64,000 nucleotides of DNA from Pseudooceanicola sp. HF7 (GTDB lineage: Bacteria; Pseudomonadota; Alphaproteobacteria; Rhodobacterales; Rhodobacteraceae): positions 1 to 64,000 of the forward strand of contig NZ_JAATOW010000010.1 of assembly GCF_011806405.1 (NCBI RefSeq), in the 5' to 3' direction. The position numbers and the translations under genes were made by a program. Below the pieces are notes generated by a model. The model was not told where the DNA came from. It did not search any database and saw only the letters and a program-made list of their open reading frames with translations. Below, piece after piece: positions 2,939 through 42,689 of this stretch (position 1 is its first letter; each line of letters starts with the position of its first letter).

Positions 2939-2988
2939 GTTTTTTGTCACGAAGGCAAAACTGTAGCGGCCCACGAAACGCTTTGCGC

Positions 2989-3110: not shown

Positions 3111-3154
3111 CTATCCTGCCTCTTGTCGTGCCTCCTTGTTTTTCACTGCTTCCC

Positions 3155-9498: not shown

Positions 9499-9523
9499 GT
9501 TTCATTATGCGAACAAAAGTCCG
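9499..9523 (+). promoter_or_regulatory. IclR-regulon box 1
   Basis: 25-bp site with half-sites GTTTCA (weak), CGAACA and AGTCCG in the arrangement N6-N5-N6-N2-N6 shared by all boxes in this island. It ends 21 bp before the GTG start of the kinase-like gene. The spacer TTATG lies where several boxes carry a -10-like TTAT. Confidence 0.65.
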
Positions 9524-9544
9524 ACAAAATTGGCTGAGGTCCGA

Positions 9545-10627
9545 GTGTCACGTCTGGGGCTGATCATCAACCCTGTCGCCGGCCTTGGCGGCGCGATGGG
9601 GCGCAAGGGCAGTGACGAAACCGACATCGCCCAACGCGCCACCGCCGAAGGGCGGGTTTCCCAGGCACCGCACCGCGCGGCCCGGGCGCTGGCGGCATTC
9701 CGCGCCCAAAGCGATGCCCCCGTCCTGGCCGGCCCGGTCCTGCCGGACGGCGACGCGGCACAGGCCTTCGGCCCCGGCGCGCTGACGCAAACGGCCAAGG
9801 ACACCCTGGCAACGGTCCAGGCGATGCAGGGGCAGGTGGACCTCATCCTCTTTGCTGGCGGCGACGGCACCGCCCGCGACATCTGCGCCGCCAACGAGAC
9901 GGGCATCCCGATCCTGGGCATCCCCTCCGGGGTCAAGATGCAGTCCGGGGTTTTCGCCCGCAGCCCCGAGCGCGCCGGGCGGCTGTCCGCGGCCTTCCTG
10001 GCCGATCCCCGACGGCGCACCGAGATGGTCGAGATCCTTGATCTGGACGAAGCGGCGCGGCGGGACGGACGGCTGTCGGCCCAGCTTTACACGGTGGCCC
10101 GCACAGCGCTGGACCGGCAGGGCGCGCGGCAGAACCCGAAGGCGGGCAGCACCGATCCGGTGGGTGACCTGGACGCGGCGCTGGCGGCCTACGTGGCCGA
10201 GATGGAGCCCGATACCCTTTATATTCTTGGGCCGGGCACCACGATGAAGGCGCTGAAGGACAGGCTGGGCGGCGGGTCGTTGTTGGGCGTGGACCTTGCC
10301 GAAGGCGGCCGCCTTACCGGGATCGACCTGGACGACACCGCGCTTCTGGCGCGGGTCAGGGGGCGGCGCGTGCGAGTCGTCCTGACCGTGGTCGGGGGGC
10401 AGGGTTTCCTGCTGGGCCGCGGCAACCAGCAGATCTCGTCTCAGGTTCTTCGCGCGGCGGGGCTGCCGCCCATCGACGTGATCTGCGGCGCAGAGAAACT
10501 GGCGGGGCTGACCCCGCAGGAACTGACAATCGACACGGGCGATCCGACGCTGGACGGCACGCTTGCGGGATACTGGCCGGTCATTACCGGCGCGGGCCGC
10601 AAGCAGGTCGTGCGCGTCGTAGCCTGA
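9545..10627 (+). CDS. ATP-NAD kinase-like protein (COG3199 type)
   Basis: Member of the NAD-kinase/AcoX-like family of 360 residues. It opens with GLIINPVAGLGG and carries the nucleotide-binding motif AGGDGTARD (about residues 99-107), both typical of COG3199 proteins, whose reaction is not well established. I start at the GTG at 9545, preceded by TGAGG; the longer upstream frame encodes nothing family-like. It is followed 20 bp later by the GcvPA-like gene and shares its promoter and IclR box. Close linkage suggests it makes or repairs a cofactor, or phosphorylates a metabolite, for the GcvP-like enzyme; that is inference. Confidence 0.8.
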   Translation: MSRLGLIINPVAGLGGAMGRKGSDETDIAQRATAEGRVSQAPHRAARALAAFRAQSDAPVLAGPVLPDGDAAQAFGPGALTQTAKDTLATVQAMQGQVDLILFAGGDGTARDICAANETGIPILGIPSGVKMQSGVFARSPERAGRLSAAFLADPRRRTEMVEILDLDEAARRDGRLSAQLYTVARTALDRQGARQNPKAGSTDPVGDLDAALAAYVAEMEPDTLYILGPGTTMKALKDRLGGGSLLGVDLAEGGRLTGIDLDDTALLARVRGRRVRVVLTVVGGQGFLLGRGNQQISSQVLRAAGLPPIDVICGAEKLAGLTPQELTIDTGDPTLDGTLAGYWPVITGAGRKQVVRVVA

Positions 10628-10647
10628 AACAAGGACAGGAGAGGGTG

Positions 10648-12027
10648 ATGAAACCGCATCCATGGATGGCGAATTCCGGCGGCACGGCCAAGCAAGAGAT
10701 GCTGGCCGCGCTTGGGGCAAGCTCGGTCGAGGCGCTCTTCGCGCAGATCCCCGAGGATCACTACATGAAGGGGCCGCTGGACCTGCCGCCGCAATTGTCC
10801 TCCGAGGTCGCGCTGGCGCGGCACCTCGACGACATGATGGGCCGCAACACGGTGTTTCCGGCGGGATCGTGTTTCCGCGGGGCCGGGGCCTGGCCGCATT
10901 ACGTACCCGCCATCTGCGATGAGGTCGTGGGCCGCTACGAGTGGCAGACCTCTGTCTTCGGCGCGCCGACCTCGGATCATGGCCGTAACCAGGCCTGGTT
11001 CGAATTCACCAGCCAGATCGGAGCGCTGGTGGAAATGGATTTCGTCGGACTGCCGGTCTATTCCTGGGGCTGCGCGGTGGGACATGCGGTGCGCATGGCA
11101 TCGCGCATCACCGGGCGCCGCAAGGTGGTCGTGCCGCAGGTCATGGATCCGGAGCGCCGCATGGTGCTTGAGACCTATTGCGAACCCACAGAGATGGCCC
11201 GCCATATCGAGATCGTGACCGTCGCACTCGGCCCGGACGGGTGCGTCGACCGTGACGACCTGCGGGCCAAGATCGAGGGCGCGGCGGCGCTCTATATCGA
11301 AACCCCCGGCTACCTGGGCGTGATCGACGCCGATCCGGGCGAACTCTGCGACATCGCGCGGGCCGCCGGTGCCGAGGCGATCGTGGGTGTCGATCCGCTG
11401 TCCCTGGGATTGCTCGAAGCGCCAGGCGCCTATGGTGCGACCATCGCCGTTGGTCCGACCCAGCCTCTGGGCGTGCACATGTACGCGGGCGGCGGCGTCG
11501 GCGGTTTCATCGCCTCGCCCGACGAGGAACGCTATGCGCGGGAATACAACACACTGAACGTCTCGATCTCTCAGACGCGGGAAGCGGGCGAATTCGGCTT
11601 TGGCCTCGCCCTGTTCCACCAGTCATCCTACGGGATGCGCGACGAGGGCAAGGATTGGACCGGGAACTCGGTCTACCTCTGGGCGTTGGCGAACGCGGCC
11701 TACATGTCGGCCATGGGCCCCGAGGGCTTTGCCGAGGTCGGTCGGCTGATCATGGCCCGCGCCCGCGCCGCCGCCGAGGCGCTGAATGCGCTGGAGGGCG
11801 TTTCGGTCGACCTGACGCAGCCGGTCTTCAAGGAATTCGTTGCCCGCTTCGACAAGGCGGTGCCCCAAGTCAATGCAAGCCTGCGCGCCGCCGGGATCCT
11901 GGGCGGCAAGGACCTGACCGGAGAGCCCGGGATCGAGGGGAACGCGGCGCTCTTCTGCGTGACCGAAGTGCATACCCAAACTGATATCGACCGCCTGGTC
12001 CAAGCCGTGAAGGAGGCCATCGCATGA
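10648..12027 (+). CDS. GcvPA-like protein, divergent paralogue of glycine decarboxylase subunit 1
   Basis: The 459-residue product aligns along its length with the N-terminal half of glycine decarboxylase P-protein: IPEDHYMKGPLDLPP near the start, then RGAGAWPHYVP matching the GAG-HY-P motif. However, the strongly conserved TPYQPE-SQG block of true GcvP is replaced by FGAPTSDHGRNQ, and the following ASL-DGATA region by LPVYSWGCAVGHA. The start is the ATG at 10648, six bases after AGGAG; a GTG directly before it is too close. The stop overlaps the next start (ATGA). It presumably forms a heterodimer with the GcvPB-like protein. I doubt that it decarboxylates glycine in the standard cleavage system. 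Confidence 0.78.
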   Translation: MKPHPWMANSGGTAKQEMLAALGASSVEALFAQIPEDHYMKGPLDLPPQLSSEVALARHLDDMMGRNTVFPAGSCFRGAGAWPHYVPAICDEVVGRYEWQTSVFGAPTSDHGRNQAWFEFTSQIGALVEMDFVGLPVYSWGCAVGHAVRMASRITGRRKVVVPQVMDPERRMVLETYCEPTEMARHIEIVTVALGPDGCVDRDDLRAKIEGAAALYIETPGYLGVIDADPGELCDIARAAGAEAIVGVDPLSLGLLEAPGAYGATIAVGPTQPLGVHMYAGGGVGGFIASPDEERYAREYNTLNVSISQTREAGEFGFGLALFHQSSYGMRDEGKDWTGNSVYLWALANAAYMSAMGPEGFAEVGRLIMARARAAAEALNALEGVSVDLTQPVFKEFVARFDKAVPQVNASLRAAGILGGKDLTGEPGIEGNAALFCVTEVHTQTDIDRLVQAVKEAIA

Positions 12028-13568
12028 CCGCCCCAATCAAGGATTTCGCCAAGAGATCAAACGGATATCGTGCTGCCAAATGGTCCGAGCCTGTGGTGAT
12101 GCAGATGACGGGCACCGGCCGCCGTGGCGTGGTCTTCGAAGACGCGCCCGCGCCTGCGCTGCCAGGGAAATCCGCGCGCAAGGCCGCTCCGGCCTTGCCG
12201 GAGGTTACCGAGCATGATGCCCTGCGCCACTACCTGCACCTCAGCCAGATGACGCTTGGCATGATGGGGATATCGCTCTTCGGCACCTGCACGATGAAAT
12301 ACAACCCGCGCATCGGTGAGCGCGCCAGCCTGGATCACCTGCGGGGGCTGCATCCCCTGCAAGAGGCCGAGACGCTTCAGGGCGTGCTGGAGATGTATGA
12401 CAATTTCAGCGACTTCCTCTGCGAAGTCAGCGGCATGGACCAGTTCGTCTTCCAGGCGGGCGGCGGGGCGGATGCCGCTTATACCCATGCCTGCGTGACG
12501 CGGGCCTACCACGCCAGCCGGGGCGAGTTGCAGCAGCGCGACCAGATCATCACCACGATCCAGACCCATCCCTGCTCGCCCGCCACCGCGAACACCGCCG
12601 GCTTCGAGGTGATTACCCTGTCGCTCGAGGAAAACGGCTATCCCTCGATCGAGCAGCTGAAGTCCGTCGTGGGGCCGCGTACGGCGGCGCTGATGGTGAA
12701 CAACCCGGACGACATGGGCATCTACAATCCGGACATCAAGGAATGGGTGCGCATCGTGCACGAGGCCGGGGGCCTGTGCTTCTATGACCATGCGAATTTC
12801 AACGGCGTGATGACCCGTCTGCGCGCGCGCGAACTCGGTTTCGATGCCTGCATGTACATGCTGCACAAGACCTTCGGTGCGCCGAAGGGCGGGGGCGGCC
12901 CGGCTGTAGGCGCCTATGGCTGCGCCGAACACCTGGTGCCCTTCCTGCCGGGGCCGGTCGTGGTAAAGGACGGGGGCAGCTACCGCCTGGACGCGGATCG
13001 CCCCCAAAGTATCGGCCGCGTGCGCGAATTCTGGGGCAACGCGCCTCAGGTTCTCAAGGCCTATGCCTGGGCGCGCGCCATGGGCGCGGAGGGGCTGCGT
13101 GAGGCCGCGGATATCTCCGTCCTGTCCAACAATTACATGGACTGGCGGCTTGCCCAGGTGAGGGGCGTCAGCCGCTCCAATCCGGGCATAGACGCGCCCC
13201 GGATGGAGATGACACGCCATTCCGTCGAACAGGTGACGGAGGAGACTGGCTGTTCCATCTTCGACATCTCGATGCGGATGACGGACTTCGGCATCGATGC
13301 GCTTTGGCTCAGCCACGAACCCTTCCTGGTGCCCGAGCCGTTCACGCCAGAGGCGGGCGAGCTTTGGTCGAAGGAGGATATCGACTACTGGATCGACGTT
13401 CTGGAGCACGTGATCGGCGAAGCCTATGCAGATCCGGAGATCGTCAAGACCGCGCCGCACAATGCCGCCATCCACCAGCTGACCAGCGCGCTGGATGAAC
13501 CCGATGTCTGGGCGACCACCTGGCGCGCCTATGAGCGCAAGCATCGCAAGCAGATGGCAGCCGAATAG
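12024..13568 (+). CDS. GcvPB-like PLP enzyme, divergent paralogue of glycine decarboxylase subunit 2
   Basis: PLP-dependent fold-type I protein of 514 residues. The cofactor lysine is visible at residue 282 in HKTFGAPKGGGGP, as in GcvPB, and GTCTMKYNP matches the GSCTMKLN motif. Other hallmarks differ: HGTNPASA is replaced by HPCSPATA, TYPSTHGVYE by NNPDDMGIYN, and the C-terminal EPTESE by PEPFTPEAG. No lipoyl carrier (gcvH) or aminomethyltransferase (gcvT) is in the window. The likely role is a PLP decarboxylation or C-C cleavage on a substrate other than glycine, together with the GcvPA-like subunit. Confidence 0.78.
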   Translation: MTAPIKDFAKRSNGYRAAKWSEPVVMQMTGTGRRGVVFEDAPAPALPGKSARKAAPALPEVTEHDALRHYLHLSQMTLGMMGISLFGTCTMKYNPRIGERASLDHLRGLHPLQEAETLQGVLEMYDNFSDFLCEVSGMDQFVFQAGGGADAAYTHACVTRAYHASRGELQQRDQIITTIQTHPCSPATANTAGFEVITLSLEENGYPSIEQLKSVVGPRTAALMVNNPDDMGIYNPDIKEWVRIVHEAGGLCFYDHANFNGVMTRLRARELGFDACMYMLHKTFGAPKGGGGPAVGAYGCAEHLVPFLPGPVVVKDGGSYRLDADRPQSIGRVREFWGNAPQVLKAYAWARAMGAEGLREAADISVLSNNYMDWRLAQVRGVSRSNPGIDAPRMEMTRHSVEQVTEETGCSIFDISMRMTDFGIDALWLSHEPFLVPEPFTPEAGELWSKEDIDYWIDVLEHVIGEAYADPEIVKTAPHNAAIHQLTSALDEPDVWATTWRAYERKHRKQMAAE

Positions 13569-13664: not shown

Positions 13665-14375
13665 TCAGATGAAGGTTTCGAGCCGGGTATTGACCACAAG
13701 TTCGGGAAGGCTGGCCTGGTTCGGCAAGGCCAGCACCATCGCCACGATCTCGGCCACATCCGCCGGTTGCAGGCGCTTGTCCTTGGGCGTGACGCCGGGC
13801 ACGTCTGCGATCATGTCGGTGTCGATCGCGCCGGGGCAGATCGCGGTGCCGCGCAGACCCTCGTCCCAGCCCTGGAAGCGCACCGCCTGGGTCATCGCCA
13901 GAAGCGCGCCCTTTGTCATCACGTAGCCCAGAGAGGCAGAGGGATCGCGATAGCGCTTCGCATCGGTTGAGGCGATGGAGACGACGCGCCCTTGGCCGGA
14001 AGCCTTGAGGTGGGGCAGGGCGGCGCGGATCAGCAGGAACGGTGCCTTGGTGTTGACCGTCCACAGGTCATCCAGGTCAGGCTCTGTCCCGCGGGAGAAA
14101 TCCACCATCTTGAGGATGCCGGCATTGTTGATCAGGGCGTCGGGGGCGCCCATCTCGGCCACGGTGGTATCGACCCAGGCCTGGGCCGTTGCGGGCTCGT
14201 GCGCATCGAAGCGAAAGCCGCGCAGCTGTGCGGGATCGGCATCCGGAAAGGCCTGGGCCAGCCGCTCGGGTTGGCGCAGGCCGACGGACACGCGATGTCC
14301 GTCGGCAAGGCAGCGGGCGGTGATGGCGGCGCCAAGGCCCCGCGCACCGCCCGAGATCATGACAAGGCGCGTCAT
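13665..14375 (-). CDS. SDR-family oxidoreductase
   Basis: Short-chain dehydrogenase of 236 residues with the NAD(P) motif GGARGLGAA, the structural NNAG motif and the catalytic YVMTK, so probably active. It is last in the operon starting with the binding-protein gene at 21859, and its start overlaps the stop of the preceding SDR by one base. The final residues are not of the usual DGG type. Substrate unknown; an alcohol or oxo acid from the aminotransferase/aldolase steps is likely. Confidence 0.85.
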   Translation of the reverse strand: MTRLVMISGGARGLGAAITARCLADGHRVSVGLRQPERLAQAFPDADPAQLRGFRFDAHEPATAQAWVDTTVAEMGAPDALINNAGILKMVDFSRGTEPDLDDLWTVNTKAPFLLIRAALPHLKASGQGRVVSIASTDAKRYRDPSASLGYVMTKGALLAMTQAVRFQGWDEGLRGTAICPGAIDTDMIADVPGVTPKDKRLQPADVAEIVAMVLALPNQASLPELVVNTRLETFI

Positions 14376-15157
14376 CAGAACAGGCCCTGGTAGACGCCGC
14401 CATCGTTGATGATGTTCTGGCCTACGATGAACCCGGCCTGGTCCGAGCACAGGAAGGTGACAAGATCACCGCATTCCTTGGGATCGGCGAAGCGTCGGGC
14501 CGGTACGCTCTGGATCCGGTTCTCTACGATGGCCTCGTAGGTGGTGTTGCCGCGCCGCGCGTGGTTGTGCAGGTTGGTGTGCAGCGCGTCCGTGTCGAAG
14601 AAGCCCGGGCAGACGGTGTTGATCGTCACGTTGTCGCGCACGGTTTCCTTGACCAGCGAGGCGATCGCCCCGGACAGCGCCAGCCGCGCCGAATGCGAAT
14701 GCGCGAAATGCGGCTGCGGGAACTTGATGAAACTGACCGAGATATTGACGATCCGCCCGAACTTGCGCTCGCGCATGCCCGGAAGCACGCCGGTGATCAT
14801 TTCGAGCGAAGAGAAGAAATGCGCGTTGAACCATTCGTCCCAGTCGGCGCGGGTCCACTCCTCGTATTCGCCGGGGATCTGGCGCACGCCGGGATTGGTC
14901 ACGAGGATATCTGCCCCCTCTCCCTTTGCCAGGATCTCTGCGCGGCCCTCTGCACTGCTGAAGTCGGCGGCCACGGTGGTGACCTTCACCCCGTGTTTGT
15001 CGCGGATCTCATCGGCCGTGGCCTCGAGCGCCTCGGCGCTGCGGGCGTTCATCACCAGATCGACGCCCTCTGCGGCCAGGGAAAACGCGCAGGCCCGTCC
15101 CAGGCCCTTGCTTGCGGCCGAGACGATGGCACGGCGACCCTTGAGTCCCATATCCAT
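14375..15157 (-). CDS. SDR-family protein lacking the usual catalytic Tyr-x3-Lys
   Basis: Rossmann-fold SDR of 260 residues with SAASKGLGRA at the cofactor site, VTNPG where most SDRs have NNAG, and a C-terminal NDGGVYQG. The segment where YxxxK is expected reads AHSHSARLAL, with no tyrosine or lysine in the right places. SDR subfamilies with SNGARAGL-like sequence at this position exist. The start at 15157 lies after AAAGGAATTCCC. It could be a non-redox SDR, a binding protein, or an enzyme with a different mechanism. Confidence 0.8.
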   Translation of the reverse strand: MDMGLKGRRAIVSAASKGLGRACAFSLAAEGVDLVMNARSAEALEATADEIRDKHGVKVTTVAADFSSAEGRAEILAKGEGADILVTNPGVRQIPGEYEEWTRADWDEWFNAHFFSSLEMITGVLPGMRERKFGRIVNISVSFIKFPQPHFAHSHSARLALSGAIASLVKETVRDNVTINTVCPGFFDTDALHTNLHNHARRGNTTYEAIVENRIQSVPARRFADPKECGDLVTFLCSDQAGFIVGQNIINDGGVYQGLF

Positions 15158-15221
15158 GGGGAATTCCTTTCTGTGGTCGTTGCTGTTCGGGCGGCCAGGA
15201 GCCGCCCTTTCTCTGTCGCGA

Positions 15222-16139
15222 TCAGGCGCAGTTCTGGCCTGTTGCGAGGATGCGGTCCAGCCCGGCATGCAGTTCGGCCAGGGCTTTGCCTTCCGTCGGT
15301 TGCAGCGGGGCACGCGGCAGGCCACCGCCCGGCAGGCCAAGATAATCCATCGCGGCCTTGGTCGCAGGGTAAAGCGTGCGCCCCCCGCTGACAAAGAGGT
15401 CGGTCAGGTCGCGGGCCCGTGCCTGAACCTGCCAGGCGGCCTCGGTATCGCCGCGCTGCACCATGGACCAGATGTCCAGAAGATCTGTCCAGATGTTGGG
15501 GAAGCAATCCACCAGCCCGTCGCAACCGGCCAGCATGGCCGGCACGCCGATAGTCGAGGATGGGCCGCAGAAGACGCGGATGCGGTCCCGGGTCAGGGTC
15601 AGCGTGCGGTGGAAGTTCAGCCAGTCGCCCGAGCTTTCCTTGATCGCCACGACATTCTCGAGATCAGCAAGTTCATCCACGATCTCTGGCGTCAGGGCGT
15701 TCCCCGCATTGCCCGGGATGTTGTAAAGCACCACCGGCAGCGGAGCGGCATCGCTGATCGCGCGGAAATGCGCGACGATCTCGGCGCGGGACAGGTGCAC
15801 GAAGTAGGGCGGCAGGACCAGCACGCCGTCGGCGCCTGCCTCTGCGGCGTCTTCCATGCCGGAAATCACGTCGCGCGGTGTGATCCCGGCGGCGCCCACG
15901 ATGGCGGTGCCTTCAGTGCCTGCGGCCTGTCGCGTGGTGGCATAGATGGCGCGCCGCTCGTCTGGACGCAGGGCCCAGAATTCGCCGGTGCAGCCTGCTG
16001 CCAGGACGCCGGTGGCGCCGGCAGAGATCAACCGCTGGATGTTGGCGGCCAGGCCCTCATGGTCAACCTCGTCCTTCGCGGTGAAAGGCGTGGTGATCGC
16101 GGGCATGGGGCCGGACCAGGTGATCGTATTTCTGTCCAA
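15222..16139 (-). CDS. Dihydrodipicolinate-synthase/N-acetylneuraminate-lyase family protein (1)
   Basis: Class I aldolase-type TIM barrel of 305 residues. The Schiff-base lysine is at 167 (AIKESS), the catalytic tyrosine at 139 (LYNIPG), and the carboxylate-binding motif GCTGE at 49-53. These residues define enzymes that add to or cleave pyruvate-like keto acids or deaminate cyclic imino acids. It lies between the aminotransferase and SDR genes in an IclR-box operon, so a catabolic lyase or dehydratase role is more likely than lysine biosynthesis. Confidence 0.85.
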   Translation of the reverse strand: MDRNTITWSGPMPAITTPFTAKDEVDHEGLAANIQRLISAGATGVLAAGCTGEFWALRPDERRAIYATTRQAAGTEGTAIVGAAGITPRDVISGMEDAAEAGADGVLVLPPYFVHLSRAEIVAHFRAISDAAPLPVVLYNIPGNAGNALTPEIVDELADLENVVAIKESSGDWLNFHRTLTLTRDRIRVFCGPSSTIGVPAMLAGCDGLVDCFPNIWTDLLDIWSMVQRGDTEAAWQVQARARDLTDLFVSGGRTLYPATKAAMDYLGLPGGGLPRAPLQPTEGKALAELHAGLDRILATGQNCA

Positions 16140-16156: not shown

Positions 16157-17554
16157 TTACAGCGGCGCCAGCGCATCTTCGGCGCGCAGGGCATCGCAGA
16201 CTGACCCTGCGGCCTTGCGAACGGTCGAGACGGCAAGGTCGATCTCTTCCGGAGTGATGATGAAGGGCGGGGAGAAGCTGATCGCGTCGCCACTGGGCAG
16301 GGCGCGGCTGATGACACCCTCCTGCATGGCCGCGCGCACGATGCGCGGTCCGACCTGAAGGGCCGGGTCAAAGCGCTGCCAGCCGTCGGCCGTGGGGCGG
16401 GCGAACTCGACCGCGGCCATCAGGCCCTTGCCGCGCGTCTCTGCGACGATGGGAAGATCGCCAAAGGCCTTTGCGAGGGCGGCATTCAGGTAATCGCCCA
16501 TCTCGCCAGCGCGGGCGACCAGGTTGTCTTCTTCGACGATGTCCAGGTTGGCCAGCGCCGCGGCGGCCATGATCGGGTGCGCGGTGTAGGTGTAGCCGTG
16601 TCCGAAGGCGCCGAATTTCGCCGCGCCCTCGCCAGAGATCACCTGCCAGACCGCGTCGCCCACCAGGACGCCCGAAAGCGGCGCATAACCGGAGGTGATG
16701 CCCTTGGCGACGGACATCAGGTCCGGCTTGATCTCCATGCGTTCGGAGCCAAACCAGGTGCCAAGGCGGCCAAAGCCACAGATTACCTCGTCGGCGATCA
16801 GCAGAACATCGTGGCGGTCGAGGACCTCCCGGATGGCGGGGAAATAGCCTTCGGGGGGGACGATCACGCCGCCCGCGCCCATCACCGGCTCCGCGATGAA
16901 GGCGCCGACCGTTTCGGGGCCCTCGGCCAGGATTAGGTCTTCAAGCTCCTGCGCCAGTCGCGCCGTGAAGGTGGCATCGTCTTCGCCGGGGTGGCGGGTC
17001 CAGATATTGTGCGGGGCACTGACGTGGCGGATCATCGGCAAGGGCAGGTCAAAGCCCGCATGCAGCCCCGGCAGCCCCGTCAGGCCGCCCGAAAGCACCG
17101 TCACACCGTGATAGCCACGGTCGCGGGCGATGATCTTCTTCTTCTCCGGCTTGCCGCGGGCATTGTTGTAATACCACACGATCTTGGCCTGGGTGTCGTT
17201 GGCATCCGACCCGGATGCGCCGAAGAACACCTTTGAAAAGCCCTTAGGGGCCTTTGAGATGACGCGCTCTGCAAGGATCGCGGCGGGTTCCGTCGCCATG
17301 GAGCTGAAGCCGTGGAAGTAGCTCAGCTTGCGGGCCTGGTCGGCCAGCGCATCTGCGATACGCTCCTGGCCGTAGCCGACGTTGACGCACCAAAGCCCTG
17401 CCATCGCATCAAGGTAGCGGTTGCCCGCGTCATCGGTGATCCAGCTGCCTTCGGCGGTGCGTGCCATCATCTGGGCACCGCTCTGCTCGTGCGTTTGCGC
17501 CATGCTGAAGGGATGGAAGACATATCGCCTATCCAGGTCGCGGGTCTCGTTCAT
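16157..17554 (-). CDS. Class III omega-aminotransferase
   Basis: PLP-dependent aminotransferase of 465 residues, similar to beta-alanine/putrescine--pyruvate aminotransferases. Visible elements are GASGSDAN for phosphate binding (112-119), the cofactor-contacting D255 in IADEVICG, and the Schiff-base K284 in SVAKGITSGY. It probably moves a terminal or omega amino group from the imported compound to pyruvate. Gene order is CUT1-type transporter, aminotransferase, aldolase-family gene, SDR, SDR, with gaps of under 70 bp, so the imported solute should reach this enzyme. Confidence 0.88.
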   Translation of the reverse strand: MNETRDLDRRYVFHPFSMAQTHEQSGAQMMARTAEGSWITDDAGNRYLDAMAGLWCVNVGYGQERIADALADQARKLSYFHGFSSMATEPAAILAERVISKAPKGFSKVFFGASGSDANDTQAKIVWYYNNARGKPEKKKIIARDRGYHGVTVLSGGLTGLPGLHAGFDLPLPMIRHVSAPHNIWTRHPGEDDATFTARLAQELEDLILAEGPETVGAFIAEPVMGAGGVIVPPEGYFPAIREVLDRHDVLLIADEVICGFGRLGTWFGSERMEIKPDLMSVAKGITSGYAPLSGVLVGDAVWQVISGEGAAKFGAFGHGYTYTAHPIMAAAALANLDIVEEDNLVARAGEMGDYLNAALAKAFGDLPIVAETRGKGLMAAVEFARPTADGWQRFDPALQVGPRIVRAAMQEGVISRALPSGDAISFSPPFIITPEEIDLAVSTVRKAAGSVCDALRAEDALAPL

Positions 17555-17579: not shown

Positions 17580-18689
17580 TCATTTCGCCCGCATCGGGAT
17601 GACCGCTGCAGGGGTTTCGTCGAGGTTCAGGCGTGTGCCGTTTTCGCTCGCTTCGAAGAGATGGATCGCCGCGGGATCGAAACGCAGGGCGACCTTCTGG
17701 CCAACATCCAGCTTGCGCGCAGCCTCGACCCGCGCGCTGATGCGGGTCTGGTCGGGCAGTTCCAGCGTGACGATGGTCTCGTGGCCGGTGTTCTCGGCCA
17801 GACGGACCGTGGCGGGCAGCCCATCGCCGCTGCCGATGGCGACGAATTCGGGGCGTACGCCCAGCACCACAGGCCCATCTGCCAGGCTGTCGACAAAGTC
17901 GGCCCGGTTGAACGGGATGCGATGCCCGGAGATGACGATGTGGTCCCCTTCGGCGGTGCCGTCGATCTGGTTCATCGGCGGGGTGCCGATGAAGCCTGCG
18001 ACAAAGCGGTTGGCGGGGCGGTTGTAGATCGCGTCAGGCGTGTCGAACTGCTGGACCCGGCCGCCGTGCATCACCGCGATGCGGTTGGCCATGGTCATCG
18101 CTTCCAGCTGGTCGTGGGTGACGTAAACCATGGTCTTGCCCAGGCGGGCGTGCAGCTCGATCAGCTCTGCCCGCATGTAGCTGCGCAGCTTGGCATCCAG
18201 GTTGGACAGGGGTTCGTCCAGCAGGAAGACCTGCGGATCACGCACCAGCGCGCGCCCCAGGGCCACCCGCTGTTGCTGCCCGCCCGACAGCTGCTTGGGC
18301 TTGCGGTCAAGCAGCGCTTCGAGTTGCAGCAGCTCGGCGGCCTTTTGCACCGCTTCGGCGCGGGCCTTACCCTTGATCCCGCGCTTTTTCAGCGGGTAGG
18401 CGATGTTTTCGCCCACGGTCATGTGCGGGTAGAGCGCATAGGATTGAAACACCATGGCGATGTCGCGCTTGCCCGGCGCCAGGTCGTTGATCACCCGGTC
18501 TCCGATCCGGATCTCGCCCGAGGTGGGGAATTCCAGCCCGGCCAGCATCCGCAGGGTCGTGGACTTGCCACAGCCGGATGGCCCAAGCAGGGCGACGAAC
18601 TCACCGTCGTGGATGTCGAGGTCCAGCTTTTCGAGAGCGACGAAGCTGCCGAACCGCTTGTGGACGTCTTTGAAGATTACATTGGCCAA
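17580..18689 (-). CDS. ABC transporter ATPase, sugar type (UgpC/MalK family)
   Basis: ATP-hydrolysing subunit of a CUT1-type importer, 369 residues. Walker A is GPSGCGKS (36-43), the signature LSGGQQQR, Walker B VFLLDEP, and the C-terminal half is a MalK-type regulatory TOBE domain. The start is a TTG at 18689 preceded by AAGGA; no in-frame ATG is usable. It serves the permeases encoded directly upstream. Confidence 0.88.
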   Translation of the reverse strand: MANVIFKDVHKRFGSFVALEKLDLDIHDGEFVALLGPSGCGKSTTLRMLAGLEFPTSGEIRIGDRVINDLAPGKRDIAMVFQSYALYPHMTVGENIAYPLKKRGIKGKARAEAVQKAAELLQLEALLDRKPKQLSGGQQQRVALGRALVRDPQVFLLDEPLSNLDAKLRSYMRAELIELHARLGKTMVYVTHDQLEAMTMANRIAVMHGGRVQQFDTPDAIYNRPANRFVAGFIGTPPMNQIDGTAEGDHIVISGHRIPFNRADFVDSLADGPVVLGVRPEFVAIGSGDGLPATVRLAENTGHETIVTLELPDQTRISARVEAARKLDVGQKVALRFDPAAIHLFEASENGTRLNLDETPAAVIPMRAK

Positions 18690-18706
18690 TTCATGTTCCT
18701 TTGTAT

Positions 18707-19534
18707 TCAGCCCTTGACGCCGCCAGCTCCGAAGCCGCTGGTCAGGTAGCTTTGGAGGAAAGCGAACACGACGATGAGCGGCAGGCTCATCATCACCGAT
18801 GCCGCCATGAGCAGGGACCATTCGATGTTGAACGCGGAGATGAGCATGGACATCACGCCGGTGGTCAGCGGCGAAACCGCGTCTGAATTGACCAGCACAA
18901 GCGCGTAGAGATACTCGTTCCACGAGAGGATGAAGGTGAAGAGCGCGGTGGAGATGATCCCCGGCAGTAACTGCGGGAAGATCACGTCGCGAAAGGCGCC
19001 CATCCGGCTGGCCCCGTCCACAAGGGCCGCGTTCTCCAGGTCCACCGGGATGCCCTCCATGAAGGAGCGCAGCAGCCACAGCGCATAGGGCAGGGCAAAG
19101 GTGGTATGGGCGAGGATCAGCGAGAAGAGCGTGTTGGATAGGCCCAGGCTGACCATCATCAGATAGAGCGGGATGATCAGCACCACCGATGGCAGCAGGT
19201 AGGTGAACAACACCAGCATCGCCAGAGTCTCGCGGCCACGGTAGCGGAACCGGACAAGGCTGTAGGCCCCCAGGGTTCCCAGCCCCACCACGAAGACGGT
19301 CGTGGTACTGGCCAGCACCACCGAGTTCCGGAAGTAGCGCAGGAAGGGCGTTTCGCTGAGCAGCCGCCAGTAGTGTTCGAAGGTGACGGTTTCGGGCACC
19401 CAGGTGGGCGGGATCCGGAACAGCTCGGTCTGCGGCTTGAGCGACGTTACGATCATCCAGAGCAGCGGAAAGGAGATCAGCAGCACCAGCGACCAGGTGA
19501 TCAGGTTCAGAAGAACAGGTCGGACAAGTTTCAT
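18707..19534 (-). CDS. ABC transporter permease, MalG/UgpE type
   Basis: Inner-membrane subunit of 275 residues with about six transmembrane helices and the EAA-type loop (EGIPVDLENAALVDGASRMG). The ATG at 19534 overlaps the stop of the preceding permease gene (ATGA), which fixes the start; a much longer upstream frame is spurious. Confidence 0.9.
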   Translation of the reverse strand: MKLVRPVLLNLITWSLVLLISFPLLWMIVTSLKPQTELFRIPPTWVPETVTFEHYWRLLSETPFLRYFRNSVVLASTTTVFVVGLGTLGAYSLVRFRYRGRETLAMLVLFTYLLPSVVLIIPLYLMMVSLGLSNTLFSLILAHTTFALPYALWLLRSFMEGIPVDLENAALVDGASRMGAFRDVIFPQLLPGIISTALFTFILSWNEYLYALVLVNSDAVSPLTTGVMSMLISAFNIEWSLLMAASVMMSLPLIVVFAFLQSYLTSGFGAGGVKG

Positions 19535-20445
19535 GCCTTTTCCTTCGTCTGGCGAATGTAGAGGACCATGAAGACGAGCATCACCAGCATCATGCCGACG
19601 GAATAGGCCGCGGCCTGTCCCATCTGGTTCAGCCCGAAGGCCTCCTGGTAGACGAGCAGGGACAGCGTCTGCGTGGAGGTCACGGGGCCGCCACCGGTCA
19701 GCAGGTACAGCAGGTCGAATTCCTTGAAGTCCCAGATCGCGCGCAACAGGATGATCACGGTCAGAATGGACCGCAGCTGCGGCAAGGTCACGTCCCAGAA
19801 GCGGGCGATCGGTCCTGCGCCGTCGATGCGGGCGGCCTCGTAGAGGTTTTCCGGGATCGTCTGCAGACGCGCCAGAACGGCGATCACGACAAAGGGAAAG
19901 TACTTCCAGGCCCCCACGAGGATCACGCCGATCATCGCGTTGGGCATCGATCCCAGCCAGTCCAGCGGCATGTCGATGATGCCAAGCTGCATGAGGCCCT
20001 GGTTCAGCGCGCCGTAAAGGTCGTTGAACAGCCATTTCCAGACCAGGACGGCCACGACGGTGGACAGGAAGTAGGGAAACAGCACCAGGCTGCGCGCCAG
20101 GGATCGAAACCAGATGTTCTGGTGCAGGAGCAGGGCAATGCCGACACCTGCCACGATCTGAAGCGTCAGCGTGCCGACGGTCCAGACGATGGTGACGCGC
20201 AGCGAGCTCCAGAAGGCCTTGCCAGTCAGCAGCTCGATATAGTTGTCAGCCCCGACGAAGCCGCCTTGCAGGGTCGGGGTGTAGATCTGGAACACCGACA
20301 GGTAGAGCGCCGCCAGAAGCGGATAGACGATCACCAGCAGGAAGACGAGGATCGTGGGCGTGATCAGCACCACGCCAAGACGCGCATAGGCACGTTCCAG
20401 CGGCGACAGACCGTTGCGGGGAGGGTCGGTGGTCAACGTGGTCAT
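19531..20445 (-). CDS. ABC transporter permease, MalF/UgpA type
   Basis: Inner-membrane subunit of 304 residues with about six transmembrane helices and the EAA loop (IPENLYEAARIDGAGPIARF). The start MTTLTTDPP at 20445 is chosen because it precedes the conserved membrane part. It pairs with the MalG-type permease. Confidence 0.9.
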   Translation of the reverse strand: MTTLTTDPPRNGLSPLERAYARLGVVLITPTILVFLLVIVYPLLAALYLSVFQIYTPTLQGGFVGADNYIELLTGKAFWSSLRVTIVWTVGTLTLQIVAGVGIALLLHQNIWFRSLARSLVLFPYFLSTVVAVLVWKWLFNDLYGALNQGLMQLGIIDMPLDWLGSMPNAMIGVILVGAWKYFPFVVIAVLARLQTIPENLYEAARIDGAGPIARFWDVTLPQLRSILTVIILLRAIWDFKEFDLLYLLTGGGPVTSTQTLSLLVYQEAFGLNQMGQAAAYSVGMMLVMLVFMVLYIRQTKEKA

Positions 20446-20468
20446 GGAAAGTCCCGAAGATGAGGGGG

Positions 20469-20497
20469 CCGGCCGCAGGTGAAACACCCGCAGCCGG
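20469..20497 (-). promoter_or_regulatory. Stem-loop between binding-protein and permease genes
   Basis: On the minus strand a 13-bp stem with two G-U pairs and a TTT loop sits between the binding-protein stop and the MalF-type start, with no following T-run. Such structures commonly protect upstream mRNA so that the binding protein is made in excess. Two other ABC operons in the window have the same feature. Confidence 0.6.
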
Positions 20498-20521
20498 ACG
20501 GAGTGGTGACAGTCGGGGCGC

Positions 20522-21859
20522 TTAGGCGCCCATGATGTCCTCGATTCGGCTGGCGGTTTCGCCCAGCACCACATCGACGTTTTCATCGTTCAGCACGACG
20601 CGCTGGACCATCTCTGCGATCACGCCGGAGTTCACGACTTCGCCGGCGCGGGTGTTGGGCTGGTGCTCCGGGCTTTCCCAACCCAGGTTGAAGCCGTTCG
20701 CGGCGGCTTCGGACATCAGATCGACTTCGGCCCTGTACTTCTCGATGATCGGATCGTTCAGGTAGTCCGGGTCCTGCGCGATGGTCTTGAGCACCGGCAG
20801 GACGTGACCCGGGGCGGCGTGCAGCTGCTGGATGTAGCCCTCGGGATCATAGAGGAAGGCCGCGAACTGCTTGGTCGCTTCCATGTTCGACGCCTGCTTG
20901 GGGATGAACACTGACGGGAAGTCGTTGAAGGTCCAAGGCGCGATATCCCGGGATTTCGTCGGGTAGGTGTCGCAGGTGATGTGATCCGCGATGGCGGGGT
21001 TCTGGTTGTTGACGTTGACCAGAACGCGGCCGGTATAGACGCCGGTGGCGCAGGCGCCGGACACGAAGGCCGTCAGGCTGTCGCCCCAGCTGTAGTTGGT
21101 GGCCCCCGGCGGGCAGTACTCGCGCATGGCCTTGTAGAATTCCAGCGCGTCGCGGGTTTCCTGGCTGTCGATGGCCACCTCGAGATCGGGCGAGAAGACC
21201 ATGCCGCCCGCCTGGTGGATGACACCGATGAAGATCAGCGAAGTCATCGAATTGCGCCCGTAGGGCAGGGGCGCGCCGTAGATGCCACCGCCCTGCATTT
21301 TACTACAGGCGGACAGAAGTTCGTCCCACGTGCGTGGATTGGCCTCGATCCCGGCCTTTTCCATCAGGTCCTTGCGCAGCCAGATCACATTGGCCGAGGA
21401 GTTGCCGATGGAGGTGCCGGCGTATTGTCCCTTGTCGATCTCGTAGATCCGGTTGACGCCGTCGTAGAATTTCTCGGGGCCGATCATCTCGATCACGTCG
21501 TTGAAGGGCTCCAGCAGACCGTTGCGCCAGTAGTTCGACACGGCGAAGCTGGGCAGGTGGGTCACGACGTTCGGAACGTCTCCGCTGGCAAAAGCCGCTG
21601 CCAATTGAGGGGCGTAGCCTTCGTCCGAGGTCTTTTCGAACACGACTTTGATATTCGGCTGCGCGGCTTCGAAGTTGGCGATCTGGGTTCGGTAAGCCGC
21701 CATTTGCTCTGGCGATGATTGAGGCGACCACCAGCGCAGGGTGATCTTCTCTTGCGCCAGGATCCGGCGCGGCATGAGGGCCGCGGCGCCGGCCGCTGCC
21801 ATTCCGGTAAGAACCGTGCGACGCGGCAGTCCCGCGTTCGTCATTTTATTGGTGGTCAT
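20522..21859 (-). CDS. ABC transporter substrate-binding protein (extracellular family 1), Tat-exported
   Basis: Periplasmic solute-binding protein of 445 residues, MalE/UgpB class. The N-terminus carries a twin-arginine signal (LPRRTVLTG, then a hydrophobic stretch ending ILA-Q), so it is probably exported folded. The ATG at 21859 follows GGGAG. It is the first gene of the operon running to 13665 and is preceded by IclR box 2. The family binds sugars or glycerol-phosphodiesters, but the enzymes in this operon suggest a nitrogen-containing solute. Confidence 0.9.
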   Translation of the reverse strand: MTTNKMTNAGLPRRTVLTGMAAAGAAALMPRRILAQEKITLRWWSPQSSPEQMAAYRTQIANFEAAQPNIKVVFEKTSDEGYAPQLAAAFASGDVPNVVTHLPSFAVSNYWRNGLLEPFNDVIEMIGPEKFYDGVNRIYEIDKGQYAGTSIGNSSANVIWLRKDLMEKAGIEANPRTWDELLSACSKMQGGGIYGAPLPYGRNSMTSLIFIGVIHQAGGMVFSPDLEVAIDSQETRDALEFYKAMREYCPPGATNYSWGDSLTAFVSGACATGVYTGRVLVNVNNQNPAIADHITCDTYPTKSRDIAPWTFNDFPSVFIPKQASNMEATKQFAAFLYDPEGYIQQLHAAPGHVLPVLKTIAQDPDYLNDPIIEKYRAEVDLMSEAAANGFNLGWESPEHQPNTRAGEVVNSGVIAEMVQRVVLNDENVDVVLGETASRIEDIMGA

Positions 21860-21880
21860 AAGACACTCCCATGTTGGCGA

Positions 21881-21905
21881 TGTCCGCATATCGAACATAT
21901 GTCCG
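21881..21905 (-). promoter_or_regulatory. IclR-regulon box 2
   Basis: Half-sites TGTCCG, CGAACA and TGTCCG in the common 25-bp arrangement, read on the plus strand. It lies 21 bp upstream of the binding-protein start and within the gene gap that also contains the iclR promoter. Confidence 0.75.
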
Positions 21906-21935
21906 GATTATTGCTTCGACATGTTTCAGATCGCA

Positions 21936-21955
21936 AGTGTTTTTTGCGAAACACT
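21936..21955. promoter_or_regulatory. Inverted repeat in the iclR leader
   Basis: AGTGTTT (21936-21942) and AAACACT (21949-21955) form a perfect 7-bp inverted repeat between boxes 2 and 9. It could be a further operator or a hairpin in the iclR leader. Confidence 0.4.
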
Positions 21956-21993
21956 CGGATGAAGGAGGGTTCCTATGCGCCATTTGTGGTGTT

Positions 21994-22018
21994 AGTTCGG
22001 AGCGCGAACAAAAAAATG
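21994..22018 (+). promoter_or_regulatory. IclR-regulon box 9, probably autoregulatory
   Basis: AGTTCG, 5 bases, CGAACA: a GTTCG/CGAAC inverted repeat with the same spacing as the other boxes but lacking the third half-site. It ends 8 bp before the iclR start, a position suited to autorepression. Confidence 0.55.
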
Positions 22019-22026
22019 GATCTCAG

Positions 22027-22878
22027 ATGGCGAAACCTGCAAAGACCAGCTCCGTTCAGGCCGCGAGCGACACGCGCCTTGGCACCGTCACAGCCGAAGC
22101 TGGAGACGAGAATGACAAGCTGTCCAGCCGGGACTTCGTCAGTTCGCTGTCCCGGGGGCTGGAAATCCTGTCCAGCTTCAGCCGCACCTCTAAGAAGATG
22201 ACGCTGTCCGAAGTTGCCGCGGAAACCGGGATGAGCCGCGCCACGGCGCGTCGTTTCCTGCTGACCCTGGTCAAGGAAGGCTACGTCATAACGGACGGCA
22301 AGTTGTTCGACCTGACGCCGAAGGTCCTGGACCTCGGGTTTTCCGTGCTGTCCAAGATCGGGATCTGGGATCGTGCCCGCCCCTTCATGGAGCGCCTGTC
22401 CGAACAGACCGGCGAAAGCTGCACGGCCGCTATCCTGGACGGGCTGGACGTGGTCTATGTGGCCGGTGTCCAGGCGCACAACATCATCAGTGTCGGGATC
22501 ACCGTGGGCAGCCGGCAATCGGCCTTTTATACCGCGAATGGTCGTGTCCTGCTGGCGTCACAGCCAGAGGAAAACTGGGACGGCATCATCGCCAATGCCC
22601 GGCTGGTGCCGCGCACTCGTCACAGCGTGACCAACAAGGCCGAGCTGCGCGCGACCCTGGAAACTGTGCGCGATCAAGGCTGGGCCCTGGTCGATCAGGA
22701 GCTGGAAGAGGGGCTGCTGTCGATCGCGATCCCGCTGAAGTTCCGGTCCGGTGTTCTGGCAGGGTCGATCAATATCGCCGTTCCGTCGATCCGGGCCACA
22801 CGTGACACGATGGTGGATGTCTACCTGCCGAAGCTGCGTGAAACCGCGGAAGACATTCAGAAGTCCCTGGCGCACTGA
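22027..22878 (+). CDS. IclR-family transcriptional regulator, PcaR/PcaU-like
   Basis: Regulator of 283 residues with a winged helix-turn-helix at about 58-88 (TLSEVAAETGMSRATARRFL) and a C-terminal IclR effector-binding domain from about 100. Family members of the PcaU/PobR/PcaR branch sense small catabolic intermediates. It is the only IclR gene in the window and lies in the middle of the catabolic island. The nine 25-bp boxes from 9.5 to 44.3 kb are its best candidate targets. I start at MAKPAKTSS; an upstream extension is not family-like. Whether it represses, activates or does both cannot be told. Confidence 0.88.
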   Translation: MAKPAKTSSVQAASDTRLGTVTAEAGDENDKLSSRDFVSSLSRGLEILSSFSRTSKKMTLSEVAAETGMSRATARRFLLTLVKEGYVITDGKLFDLTPKVLDLGFSVLSKIGIWDRARPFMERLSEQTGESCTAAILDGLDVVYVAGVQAHNIISVGITVGSRQSAFYTANGRVLLASQPEENWDGIIANARLVPRTRHSVTNKAELRATLETVRDQGWALVDQELEEGLLSIAIPLKFRSGVLAGSINIAVPSIRATRDTMVDVYLPKLRETAEDIQKSLAH

Positions 22879-22887: not shown

Positions 22888-22909
22888 GCTGGCGGTCAGG
22901 CCCGCCAGC
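22888..22909. terminator. Hairpin between iclR and the convergent oxidase gene
   Basis: GCTGGCGG (22888-22895) pairs with CCGCCAGC (22902-22909). It starts 10 bases after the iclR stop and overlaps the stop of the convergent oxidase gene. There is no clear T-run, so termination is likely but weak. Confidence 0.45.
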
Positions 22910-24014
22910 GCGCCGGTGCATAGGGCGCAGGGTCGACGGGCGGGGTCAGGCCAAGTGCCAGGCTGACTGCCGTACGGCCTGTTATCGGGCCCAGCGTGTA
23001 ACCGGCATCACCAGGAAGCGCGAAGAACACGCGGCTGCCATGCGAGGCCGGGCCGATCGTCGACTTGCCGTCCACGGGCGTGTTGTAACCCGCCCAGGTC
23101 CTCAGCACGCGCAACCCGCCGATGCCCGGCGCGATCTGTGCCGCAAGGGCCACATTGCCCAGAAGGCTGGTCTTGCGGATGCCGGGCGCCTGCCGGTCCG
23201 CGGTGGCGGTCCGGGCCTCCCACCCGCCGCCGATCACCACCTGGCCCGAACGGAACTGCTTGAGCGTGATGGGACGTTCGGCGTGCTGGACAAGATGGTG
23301 GATCCGGTATTCCCCGGCCTCGGTGATGTTCATGTGCAGCGGTTCCGGCGGGGTGGACAGGTTCAGGCCCAGCCGTCCGGCCAGCGCACCTGCGCCCCAG
23401 GCAGCTGCGATCAGGATCGCGTCGGCGGCATAGGCGCGGGCACCATGAGCGACCGGGTGCGGGCCGTCCTCGATACCCGTGATCCGGTCATGAACGTGAC
23501 GCACCCCAAGCGCATCCAGCGCGGCGCGCATCTTGCGGTTGGCGACGAGCGGGTTCAGTTTTCCTTCGTTGCGACACAGCTCTGCACCGGCGATCTGCTC
23601 AGACAGCCAGGGGGCCAGCGCGTGAAGCGCGTCCCGGTTCAGAATCTCGACGTCCAGTCCCTTGCGCGCTTCGCGCCCTGCCTTCTCATGCAGGAACTCC
23701 AGCTGCGCCGGGGTCTCTGCCAGCATCAGCCCGCCCTCGCGGGTCAGCTCCACCCCGCCCAGCCTGGCATCCAGCGCTTCCCATTCGCCCACCGCTGCCA
23801 GGTAGAGCGGCAGGGAGCTTTCAAGGTTGTCCGCCAGATGCGGGTTGAGCCGCAGGAACCGGCTTTGCATCTGGACATGCAGGCTTCCGGCGTTGGCGTG
23901 GGAGCCGGCGTTGCGCTGCGCATCGACGATGGTCACGCGCGCGCCCGCTTCGGCGGCGACCAAGGCGGCCACCTGCCCGGTGATGCCGCCCCCGATGATT
24001 AGCAGGTCGGTCAT
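22896..24014 (-). CDS. DadA/opine-oxidase-type FAD oxidoreductase (1)
   Basis: D-amino-acid-oxidase-family flavoprotein of 372 residues beginning with the FAD motif IIGGGITGQVAALVAAEAG. It resembles the catalytic B subunit of opine oxidases and hydroxyproline dehydrogenases, which oxidise a C-N bond of a secondary amine. Its ATG overlaps the stop of the upstream 2Fe-2S flavoprotein gene (ATGA), and the two products probably form one complex. The operon is HACDH-like gene, A-like subunit, this gene, under box 3. Confidence 0.82.
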   Translation of the reverse strand: MTDLLIIGGGITGQVAALVAAEAGARVTIVDAQRNAGSHANAGSLHVQMQSRFLRLNPHLADNLESSLPLYLAAVGEWEALDARLGGVELTREGGLMLAETPAQLEFLHEKAGREARKGLDVEILNRDALHALAPWLSEQIAGAELCRNEGKLNPLVANRKMRAALDALGVRHVHDRITGIEDGPHPVAHGARAYAADAILIAAAWGAGALAGRLGLNLSTPPEPLHMNITEAGEYRIHHLVQHAERPITLKQFRSGQVVIGGGWEARTATADRQAPGIRKTSLLGNVALAAQIAPGIGGLRVLRTWAGYNTPVDGKSTIGPASHGSRVFFALPGDAGYTLGPITGRTAVSLALGLTPPVDPAPYAPARWRA

Positions 24015-26628: not shown

Positions 26629-26669
26629 AAATGTCGAATGGCGTCAAGAGCGCCGGAAAGGGAAAGCCG

Positions 26670-29594: not shown

Positions 29595-29607
29595 ATCTCT
29601 CTCCGGA

Positions 29608-30438: not shown

Positions 30439-30470
30439 TGGGGGGAACCTCCGTGTCAGTAAAATCTGTA

Positions 30471-30495
30471 TGTTCATTATGCGGACAAAAGTTAG
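30471..30495 (+). promoter_or_regulatory. IclR-regulon box 4 (divergent promoters)
   Basis: TGTTCA, TTATG, CGGACA, AA, AGTTAG: third half-site weak. A further half-site-like TATATCGAACATA follows at 30496-30508, so two regulators might bind. It separates the TIM-barrel operon (32 bp away) from the divergent FAD oxidoreductase (39 bp away). Confidence 0.7.
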
Positions 30496-30534
30496 TATAT
30501 CGAACATAAGAGAGTCTTCAACGGGGATTTGTTC

Positions 30535-36447: not shown

Positions 36448-36458
36448 CTCTTTCTCCT

Positions 36459-37412: not shown

Positions 37413-37413
37413 T

Positions 37414-38397: not shown

Positions 38398-38437
38398 AAG
38401 GCTGGCGTATCCCGACAGGAATGAAACTGGATGGACG

Positions 38438-38470
38438 CGCCAGGCGGCAAGCTTGGCCTGCCGCCTGGCG
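38438..38470 (-). promoter_or_regulatory. Stem-loop between DppA- and DppB-type genes
   Basis: Perfect 12-bp inverted repeat CGCCAGGCGGCA (38438-38449) and TGCCGCCTGGCG (38459-38470) just downstream of the binding-protein gene, without a T-run. Probably protects the dppA part of the message. Confidence 0.65.
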
Positions 38471-38489
38471 TCACGAGGTGCAGTCTAGC

Positions 38490-40061: not shown

Positions 40062-40112
40062 CGGTTTAGTCTCCCTGTTATCTTTATTGTCCCGGTCAGG
40101 TGGGTGTGATTG

Positions 40113-41210: not shown

Positions 41211-41219
41211 GGTGTCTCC

Positions 41220-42626: not shown

Positions 42627-42664
42627 GATGGCAGCCTTCCAGTTGATTGAATTCTTTTTATTTC

Positions 42665-42689
42665 GCGACATTTGTTCGCATGTCGCACG
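42665..42689 (-). promoter_or_regulatory. IclR-regulon box 6
   Basis: Read on the minus strand: CGTGCG, ACATG, CGAACA, AA, TGTCGC. It sits 38 bp upstream of the M20 gene and is the only box for the seven-gene operon down to 34502. Confidence 0.72.

Follow-up and report, generated by a model that had tools for sequence, protein, structure and literature searches.

The closest solved relatives of the system described here are the two subunits of the split glycine decarboxylase P-protein of Thermus thermophilus, GcvPA and GcvPB (PDB 1WYT), which are likewise encoded by two genes, adopt fold type I of the pyridoxal phosphate (PLP) enzymes and carry the PLP lysine, histidine and aspartate. For the human P-protein, one study reports docking on homology models that predicted Q366, I372, R373 and K376 to lie at the interface with the H-protein, and gives Y161, Y164, T894 and W897 as active-site residues (PMC7259800). 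Here we describe a group of three genes (the trio) in Pseudooceanicola sp. HF7 that encode a kinase-fold protein, a GcvPA-like subunit and a GcvPB-like subunit. They lie in a 64-kb stretch of contig NZ_JAATOW010000010.1 (GCF_011806405.1), called the window below. Sequence comparisons support a distinct PLP system that is coupled to a kinase-like protein and lies outside canonical GcvPA/GcvPB. The best explanation is that the three genes form one functional unit, an H-protein-independent, heterodimeric PLP decarboxylase or lyase for an amino acid other than glycine, whose substrate is probably phosphorylated by the kinase; taken whole, we give it a probability of about 0.5.

Organization of the trio

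The genes lie on the + strand at 9545-13568 in the order kinase-fold protein (P0001), subunit 1 (P0002) and subunit 2 (P0003), and those of the two subunits overlap by 4 nt (Table 1). Coordinates, gene order and the PLP lysine K282 all agree with an earlier reading of this DNA (the original prediction). The COG3199-like gene that it had placed in front of the pair is found there as well. P0001 contains NAD_kinase and NAD_kinase_C domains and the GGDGT motif of the NAD_kinase/COG3199 superfamily, the COG name being one that we presume to apply. Subunit 2 matched a single Pfam family, Aminotran_5. A scan of genome contigs found 158 relatives, and the locus statistics below use the best 80 of these plus the window (81 loci).

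Divergence from canonical P-proteins

The trio was compared with canonical P-proteins in alignments of subunit 2 (81 trio, 31 split and 21 fused rows) and subunit 1 (80 trio, 26 split and 21 fused rows, the split set being 25 plus Thermus). Thermus was counted as split and one row of the window's own genome as fused. Own-genome duplicate loci, duplicate or partial fused matches and matches below 380 or 350 aa were removed before alignment, and the length filter cost the subunit 1 set one trio locus. The PLP residues K282, H182 and D255 are invariant across all rows of the subunit 2 alignment. In P-proteins this histidine stacks on the PLP ring, and the aspartate also has its role at PLP.

Elsewhere the two groups differ consistently. 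We called a column rewritten if split P-proteins and the trio each kept one residue in 85% or more of their rows and the two residues differed; there are 49 such columns in subunit 2 and 29 in subunit 1, and the fused P-proteins share the split residue in 33 and 18 of them, respectively. The changes (Thermus to window) include H272 to K288, T214 to D230, H261/N263 to M277/M279 and H375 to R393 in subunit 2, and P97 to G106, E139 to H147 and S317/N318 to D337/W338 in subunit 1.

The changes extend to the motifs that the original prediction had singled out. It had described TPYQPE-SQG as replaced in subunit 1, and this is seen throughout the family: none of the 26 split and 21 fused rows departs from canonical Y95, T96, P97, Y98, Q99 and E101 (Thermus numbering), both tyrosines of the YTPYQPE loop are gone from the trio, and G106, S110 and D111 stand in this stretch in 100% of the 80 trio rows (VFG-APTSDHG in the window). 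The replacement of HGTNPASA in subunit 2 is equally borne out, the trio reading HPxxPATA with P183 at 100%; where the window has S185, within this motif, 69% of the family have N. For TYPSTHGVYE the claimed difference holds, the trio reading NNPDDMGIYNP with D229, D230, Y234, N235 and P236 all at 100%, but the reference chosen was of the fused type and split P-proteins read TNP-(S/N)TLG-F-E. In these alignments, the canonical pocket motifs (YTPYQPE..SQG, HGTNPA and TLG.FE) are replaced in the trio, largely by equally conserved residues.

On a provisional placement of the human numbering, the residues listed above map to the REQHIRR-KA-SN segment, to the YTPYQPE loop and to the APT-W region. 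The first of these (REQHIRR.KA.SN), the predicted H-protein contact, is conserved in the canonical rows, and the trio reads QxSYGxR...DW, with Q326, S328, R332, D337, W338 and G340 invariant.

Trees were built by a quick method from 84 and 79 rows, taking every second trio row and 12 of the 21 fused rows, and were left unrooted. In the trees of both subunits, the 41 trio rows form one side of a branch with a Shimodaira-Hasegawa-like approximate likelihood ratio test (SH-aLRT) value of 100 and the split and fused P-proteins lie elsewhere, with long-branch warnings. Grouping inside canonical GcvPA/GcvPB, the outcome that the original prediction had named as speaking against it, was absent.

Glycine cleavage partners

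Glycine decarboxylases work with the GcvH and GcvT proteins, whose genes were sought at each locus. GcvH was found at none of the 81 trio loci (flanks of up to 10 kb for the 80 fetched loci), and GcvT gave one weak match within the same fetched flanks. The window itself has neither gene, as the original prediction had noted: GcvH was unmatched there, and GcvT matched at chance level only (E 0.33). The window's genome carries a single gcvT-gcvH-gcvP set, lying together on contig 15.

One of 40 trio genomes, the draft of Histidinibacterium aquaticum, yielded no gcvH and no canonical gcvP. Its single GcvPB-type match lies at the trio's place and has the trio's score, and its best GcvT match falls below the cut-off (140 against 235.85 bits; 323-326 bits in three comparison genomes). 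This genome without a detected glycine cleavage set is strong but not final evidence: since the set is contiguous in the window's genome, one gap in the draft assembly could hide gcvT, gcvH and gcvP together, although lipoyl/biotinyl domains of other kinds were detected in this draft. Taken with the rewritten motifs, these observations suggest that the trio has lost the use of glycine and of the H-protein.

The kinase-like protein

The P0001 motifs GGDGTARD and GRGNQ are invariant in 34 sequences. A structure model of P0001 (predicted local distance difference test, pLDDT, 87.5) retrieved nothing at E 0.001 or better in Foldseek; in a VIA re-alignment of residues 1-200, diacylglycerol kinases scored best (Z 12.3) and NAD kinases about 11. 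Both kinds of kinase phosphorylate hydroxyls. P0001 is a putative kinase on these comparisons, and a phosphate-bearing substrate is suggested because its relatives act on hydroxyls.

The gene is closely tied to the PLP pair. It was found at 77 of the 81 loci and directly upstream of the pair at 76 (68 on the same strand, 8 on the opposite one), and it is present at five of six annotated plasmid loci. In one draw of 295 genomes of the window's taxonomic family, with only the 5-6 best first-look candidates scored per genome, 13 carried the kinase and the identical 13 carried subunit 1; in each, the two genes are neighbours on one strand, separated by 28-182 nt as measured between the reported match ends. 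Pairwise distances (2850 pairs, computed without species-tree control) correlate between kinase and subunit 1 (r 0.870), kinase and subunit 2 (r 0.843) and the two subunits (r 0.923).

Of the four loci without a kinase, L039 and L067 are truncated by a contig end, and L066 and L079 come from two metagenome-assembled genomes (MAGs) of Actinomycetota. The kinase is not required in every lineage. A phosphotriesterase-family gene occupies its position in L079, which was scanned, and in L066 by cluster membership.

Proposed function and alternatives

We infer the heterodimer, the type of reaction, the order of steps and the substrate as follows. The GcvP-like subunits would pair as a heterodimer, a fold-type-I PLP enzyme that is related to split glycine decarboxylase and no longer takes glycine or the lipoyl H-protein; a non-glycine amino acid is proposed because the PLP residues are kept, the polar pocket is rewritten and a lipoyl partner is absent. 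The enzyme would form a PLP-stabilised carbanion from this amino acid, most likely through decarboxylation or loss of a beta-substituent. The COG3199 protein would be an ATP-dependent kinase, most likely phosphorylating a hydroxyl of the substrate or of its precursor, and the PLP enzyme would then act on the phosphorylated compound. The setting may be a pathway under IclR control that handles solutes resembling amines or amino acids, in which the omega-aminotransferase and the aldehyde dehydrogenase of the region could act on the amine or aldehyde formed. As classes, class III aminotransferases and SSADH-like aldehyde dehydrogenases convert primary amines to acids. Clusters of neighbouring genes (single-linkage groups annotated from one representative each, the window being clustered only to 26 kb) include the former at 28 of 80 loci, the latter at 13 and both at 10, and because these 10 loci pair the two, a decarboxylase with a further-processed amine product would fit. 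The narrower version, with a hydroxylated amino acid as the target of the COG3199 kinase and decarboxylation or phosphate elimination by the lipoyl-free heterodimer as the next step, is offered tentatively.

Several observations weigh against a kinase-coupled enzyme that is independent of the H-protein. gcvH is present somewhere in 39 of the 40 trio genomes, so that use of an H-protein there is compatible with gene content. Both subunits pass the NCBIfam cut-offs for GcvPA (390 vs 364 bits) and GcvPB (about 486 vs 441 bits). Subunit 2 yielded a weak model (pLDDT 70.6), so contacts in the pocket of the putative heterodimer rest on alignment. The P0001 re-alignment gave PurE (Z about 10) and a substrate-binding protein (Z 11.3) scores near those of the kinases. 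A profile whose positive control is the 295-genome survey found no kinase in the whole L066 and L079 genomes, and the pair on a haloarchaeal plasmid (L146) has none within 12 kb on either side (25 kb fetched). Neighbourhoods also vary; L053 and L057, for example, show neither the aminotransferase nor the aldehyde dehydrogenase, and no DAO or DapA gene either.

The first two of these points would fit an alternative glycine decarboxylase P-protein with a diverged active site that cleaves glycine with the single detected H-protein of the genome, and RefSeq plasmid records carry that name; six that we inspected describe the trio-type pair as glycine decarboxylase and attach Gene Ontology terms for glycine catabolism. 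The GcvPB cut-off is, however, not discriminating, because many fused P-proteins also pass it, and among the matches listed full-length split P-proteins score 581-742 bits against about 485 for subunit 2. The rewritten pocket motifs and predicted H-protein contact segment (the latter after PMC7259800), the separate clade, the lack of GcvH at all 81 loci and the presence of the trio in a draft genome with no detected gcvH, no canonical gcvP and no gcvT above the cut-off make this explanation highly improbable. The names GcvPA and GcvPB given to the trio subunits in databases are probably wrong, and glycine cleavage may be misplaced in metabolic models that draw on these records. A related possibility is that the pair acts on a non-glycine substrate and passes the carbanion to the lipoyl carrier of a 2-oxoacid dehydrogenase complex instead of GcvH. 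Homology indicates that the pair keeps the P-protein fold, and lipoyl/biotinyl domains occur in all four genomes tested, with 10 matches in that of Histidinibacterium; but the putative H-protein-binding segment is replaced and no lipoyl-domain gene is found among the annotated neighbour clusters (one representative each), and we regard this route as improbable.

A further explanation also makes the pair a new non-glycine enzyme and gives the kinase another task: supplying NADP(H), phosphorylating a cofactor or a downstream product, or regulating the pair. P0001 has the Pfam domains of NAD kinase, the region is rich in oxidoreductases, the pair occurs with no detected kinase in the two MAGs and beside none on the haloarchaeal plasmid, and acoX, a predicted NAD kinase gene, adjoins unrelated acetoin dehydrogenase genes (PMC6722718, PMC9676059). 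Against this, P0001 reaches at best 18 bits on curated NAD-kinase equivalog models with a cut-off of 309, the genome has another NAD_kinase_C-family gene on contig 12, and adjacency in 13 of 13 genomes exceeds what a general supply of NADPH needs. We consider it rather unlikely. If, as the preferred reading has it, the kinase prepares the substrate, the P-protein fold would gain a second, lipoyl-free type of reaction and the kinase lineage a testable role. No GcvP-like enzyme with a COG3199 kinase appeared among the matches listed in full-text literature, where subscription journals are thinly covered; the fold and the domains are known, and the combination and the proposed lipoyl-free use look new.

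Regulatory motif and probable regulon

A 26-bp matrix was built from the trio promoters of 15 other genomes, with the window excluded. It confirms the sequence before the trio that the original prediction had called an IclR box: this site scores 41.1 bits, and the best score in 100 first-order Markov background windows was 16.9 bits, none reaching 18. In the window and the 15 other loci, the motif core lies 18-48 nt upstream of the predicted kinase start. The matrix finds eight sites in the window, seven of which precede genes (Table 1; several annotations were made by eye and start codons are provisional). The eighth copy (43531-43556, - strand, 23.4 bits) has no clear gene behind it.

At the boundary between binding protein and iclR, a weaker second site recurs in 13 of the 15 matrix loci, L011 and L015 ending before the boundary; in L004 and L006, an open reading frame (ORF) is called there on the side of the binding protein alone. 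The second sites of other loci score 13-29 bits, some of them below the best simulated score. From site position and recurrence, the window's IclR protein would bind the motif. The trio is a member of a probable regulon reaching about 47 kb, which, with the motif, points to genes and transporters to follow toward the substrate.

Neighbouring genes

Recurrent contexts of the trio comprise FAD (flavin adenine dinucleotide) amine oxidoreductases, DapA-family lyases, 3HCDH and short-chain dehydrogenases, the class III aminotransferase and the SSADH-like aldehyde dehydrogenase. Clusters c19, c13 and c17, which lie next to the trio in the window, are common to 12, 15 and 16 of 80 loci. At other loci the trio adjoins a gene for a TetR regulator or for an acyl-CoA synthetase, so the pathway around it varies. 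We know of no pathway that fits the neighbour set; hydroxyproline-, ectoine- and opine-like routes were considered and left open. ORFs resembling an Mrp/Mnh-type sodium/proton antiporter were seen by eye at 50987-55735.

Table 1 Features of the window (ABC, ATP-binding cassette; OYE, old yellow enzyme).
Feature	Position	Strand	Basis
Regulatory motif before trio, TTTCATTATGCGAACAAAAGTCCGAC	9500..9525	+	41.1 bits
COG3199/AcoX-like kinase-fold protein P0001, 360 aa	9545..10627	+	Pfam NAD_kinase 52.9 bits, NAD_kinase_C 36.9 bits
GcvPA-like subunit 1, P0002, 460 aa	10645..12027	+	Pfam GDC-P 149.5 bits; PDB 1wyt_A E 1.8e-51
GcvPB-like subunit 2, P0003, 514 aa, PLP lysine K282	12024..13568	+	PDB 1wyt_B E 1.1e-77
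Two short-chain dehydrogenases and DapA-family lyase (lyase at 15222-16139)	13665..16139	-	Clusters c19, c13, c17; DHDPS Pfam (lyase)
Class III (omega) aminotransferase	16157..17554	-	Aminotran_3 296.5 bits
Sugar-type ABC transporter: ATPase, two permeases, solute-binding protein	17580..21898	-	c15, c18; ATPase and other permease by eye
IclR-family regulator, true start probably later	21871..22878	+	IclR_C 133.8 bits, HTH_IclR 59.2 bits
Regulatory motif between sugar-binding protein and iclR	21882		17.4 bits
FAD amine oxidoreductase, Hcn/SoxA-like [2Fe-2S] oxidoreductase, 3HCDH-family dehydrogenase	22896..26586	-	Clusters c4, c9; Pfam 3HCDH
Regulatory motif before 3HCDH/short-chain dehydrogenase pair	26605		33.7 bits
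Short-chain dehydrogenase	26622-27431	+	By eye; motif at 26605
OYE-like oxidoreductase, second DapA-family lyase, TIM-barrel isomerase	27556..30507	-	OYE-like by eye
Regulatory motif of TIM-barrel/FAD-oxidoreductase pair, within 5' part of longest TIM-barrel isomerase ORF	30472		29.1 bits
Second FAD amine oxidoreductase (DAO)	30529..31653	+	DAO 203.4 bits
Regulatory motif before aldehyde dehydrogenase	31697		34.5 bits
Aldehyde dehydrogenase	31739-33178	+	Aldedh 552.4 bits
Peptide-type ABC transporter, M24 and M20 hydrolases	34502..42688	-	Transporter by eye; Peptidase_M24, M20
Regulatory motif about 40 nt before in-frame ATG of M20 gene (M20-M24-peptide-transporter run)	42663	-	21.2 bits
Near-palindromic regulatory motif before amino-acid-type ABC transporter	44256	scored on -	18.8 bits
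Amino-acid-type ABC transporter	44287-47277	+	By eye

Distribution and mobility

The family ranges over Alpha-, Beta- and Gammaproteobacteria, Actinomycetota and Bacteroidota, plus one haloarchaeon. In a survey of 22 genomes of the genus, a separate trio-type GcvPB was found solely in the window's own genome; the remaining genomes carry a fused P-protein, fragmented in one.

The trio may travel on plasmids. By eye, repABC-like ORFs for plasmid replication and partition lie at 1727-5261 of the window, and a ParA/RepA-like cluster (c33) recurs near the trio in other loci. Seven plasmid records hold close bacterial relatives of the trio (60-90% identity). The haloarchaeal pair (L146, Natronosalvus halobius plasmid, 10484-13536) has a subunit 2 with 53.5% identity and an M20 hydrolase upstream; an M24 peptidase and a peptide transporter nearby resemble the genes at 34-43 kb of the window.

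Two loci stand out by their similarity to distant taxa. L006, titled Enemella evansiae (Actinomycetota), has subunits 85-92% identical to roseobacter ones and the same neighbours, and its assembly is perhaps mislabelled or contaminated. In L068 (Pedobacter petrophilus), the subunits share 87-92% identity with their Sphingomonas, Luteimonas and Aurantimonas counterparts, and the kinase only 74% with its nearest relative; this points to a likely recent horizontal transfer, with a kinase that is faster-evolving or of different origin.

Comparison with known systems

Unlike Thermus GcvPA/GcvPB, the trio has rewritten pocket motifs and a rewritten H-protein segment, falls in a separate clade, has no adjoining gcvT or gcvH and, in most loci, has a kinase neighbour. 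The coupling of a kinase to a PLP enzyme has parallels in PduX/CobD and in hydroxylysine kinase with 5-phosphohydroxylysine phospho-lyase, where the kinase phosphorylates a hydroxy-amino compound and a fold-type-I PLP enzyme decarboxylates it or catalyses an elimination. The kinase families and PLP subfamilies of these pairs differ from those of the trio, and the analogy would be one of logic only. AcoX, or 'ATP-NAD kinase', encoded with acoABC, is likewise an NAD-kinase-like protein beside an enzyme that cleaves a small metabolite (PMC9676059, PMC6722718). Unlike AcoX, the trio kinase has as its partner a PLP enzyme and not a thiamin-diphosphate-dependent acetoin dehydrogenase, and the two are likened here by description, not by orthology.

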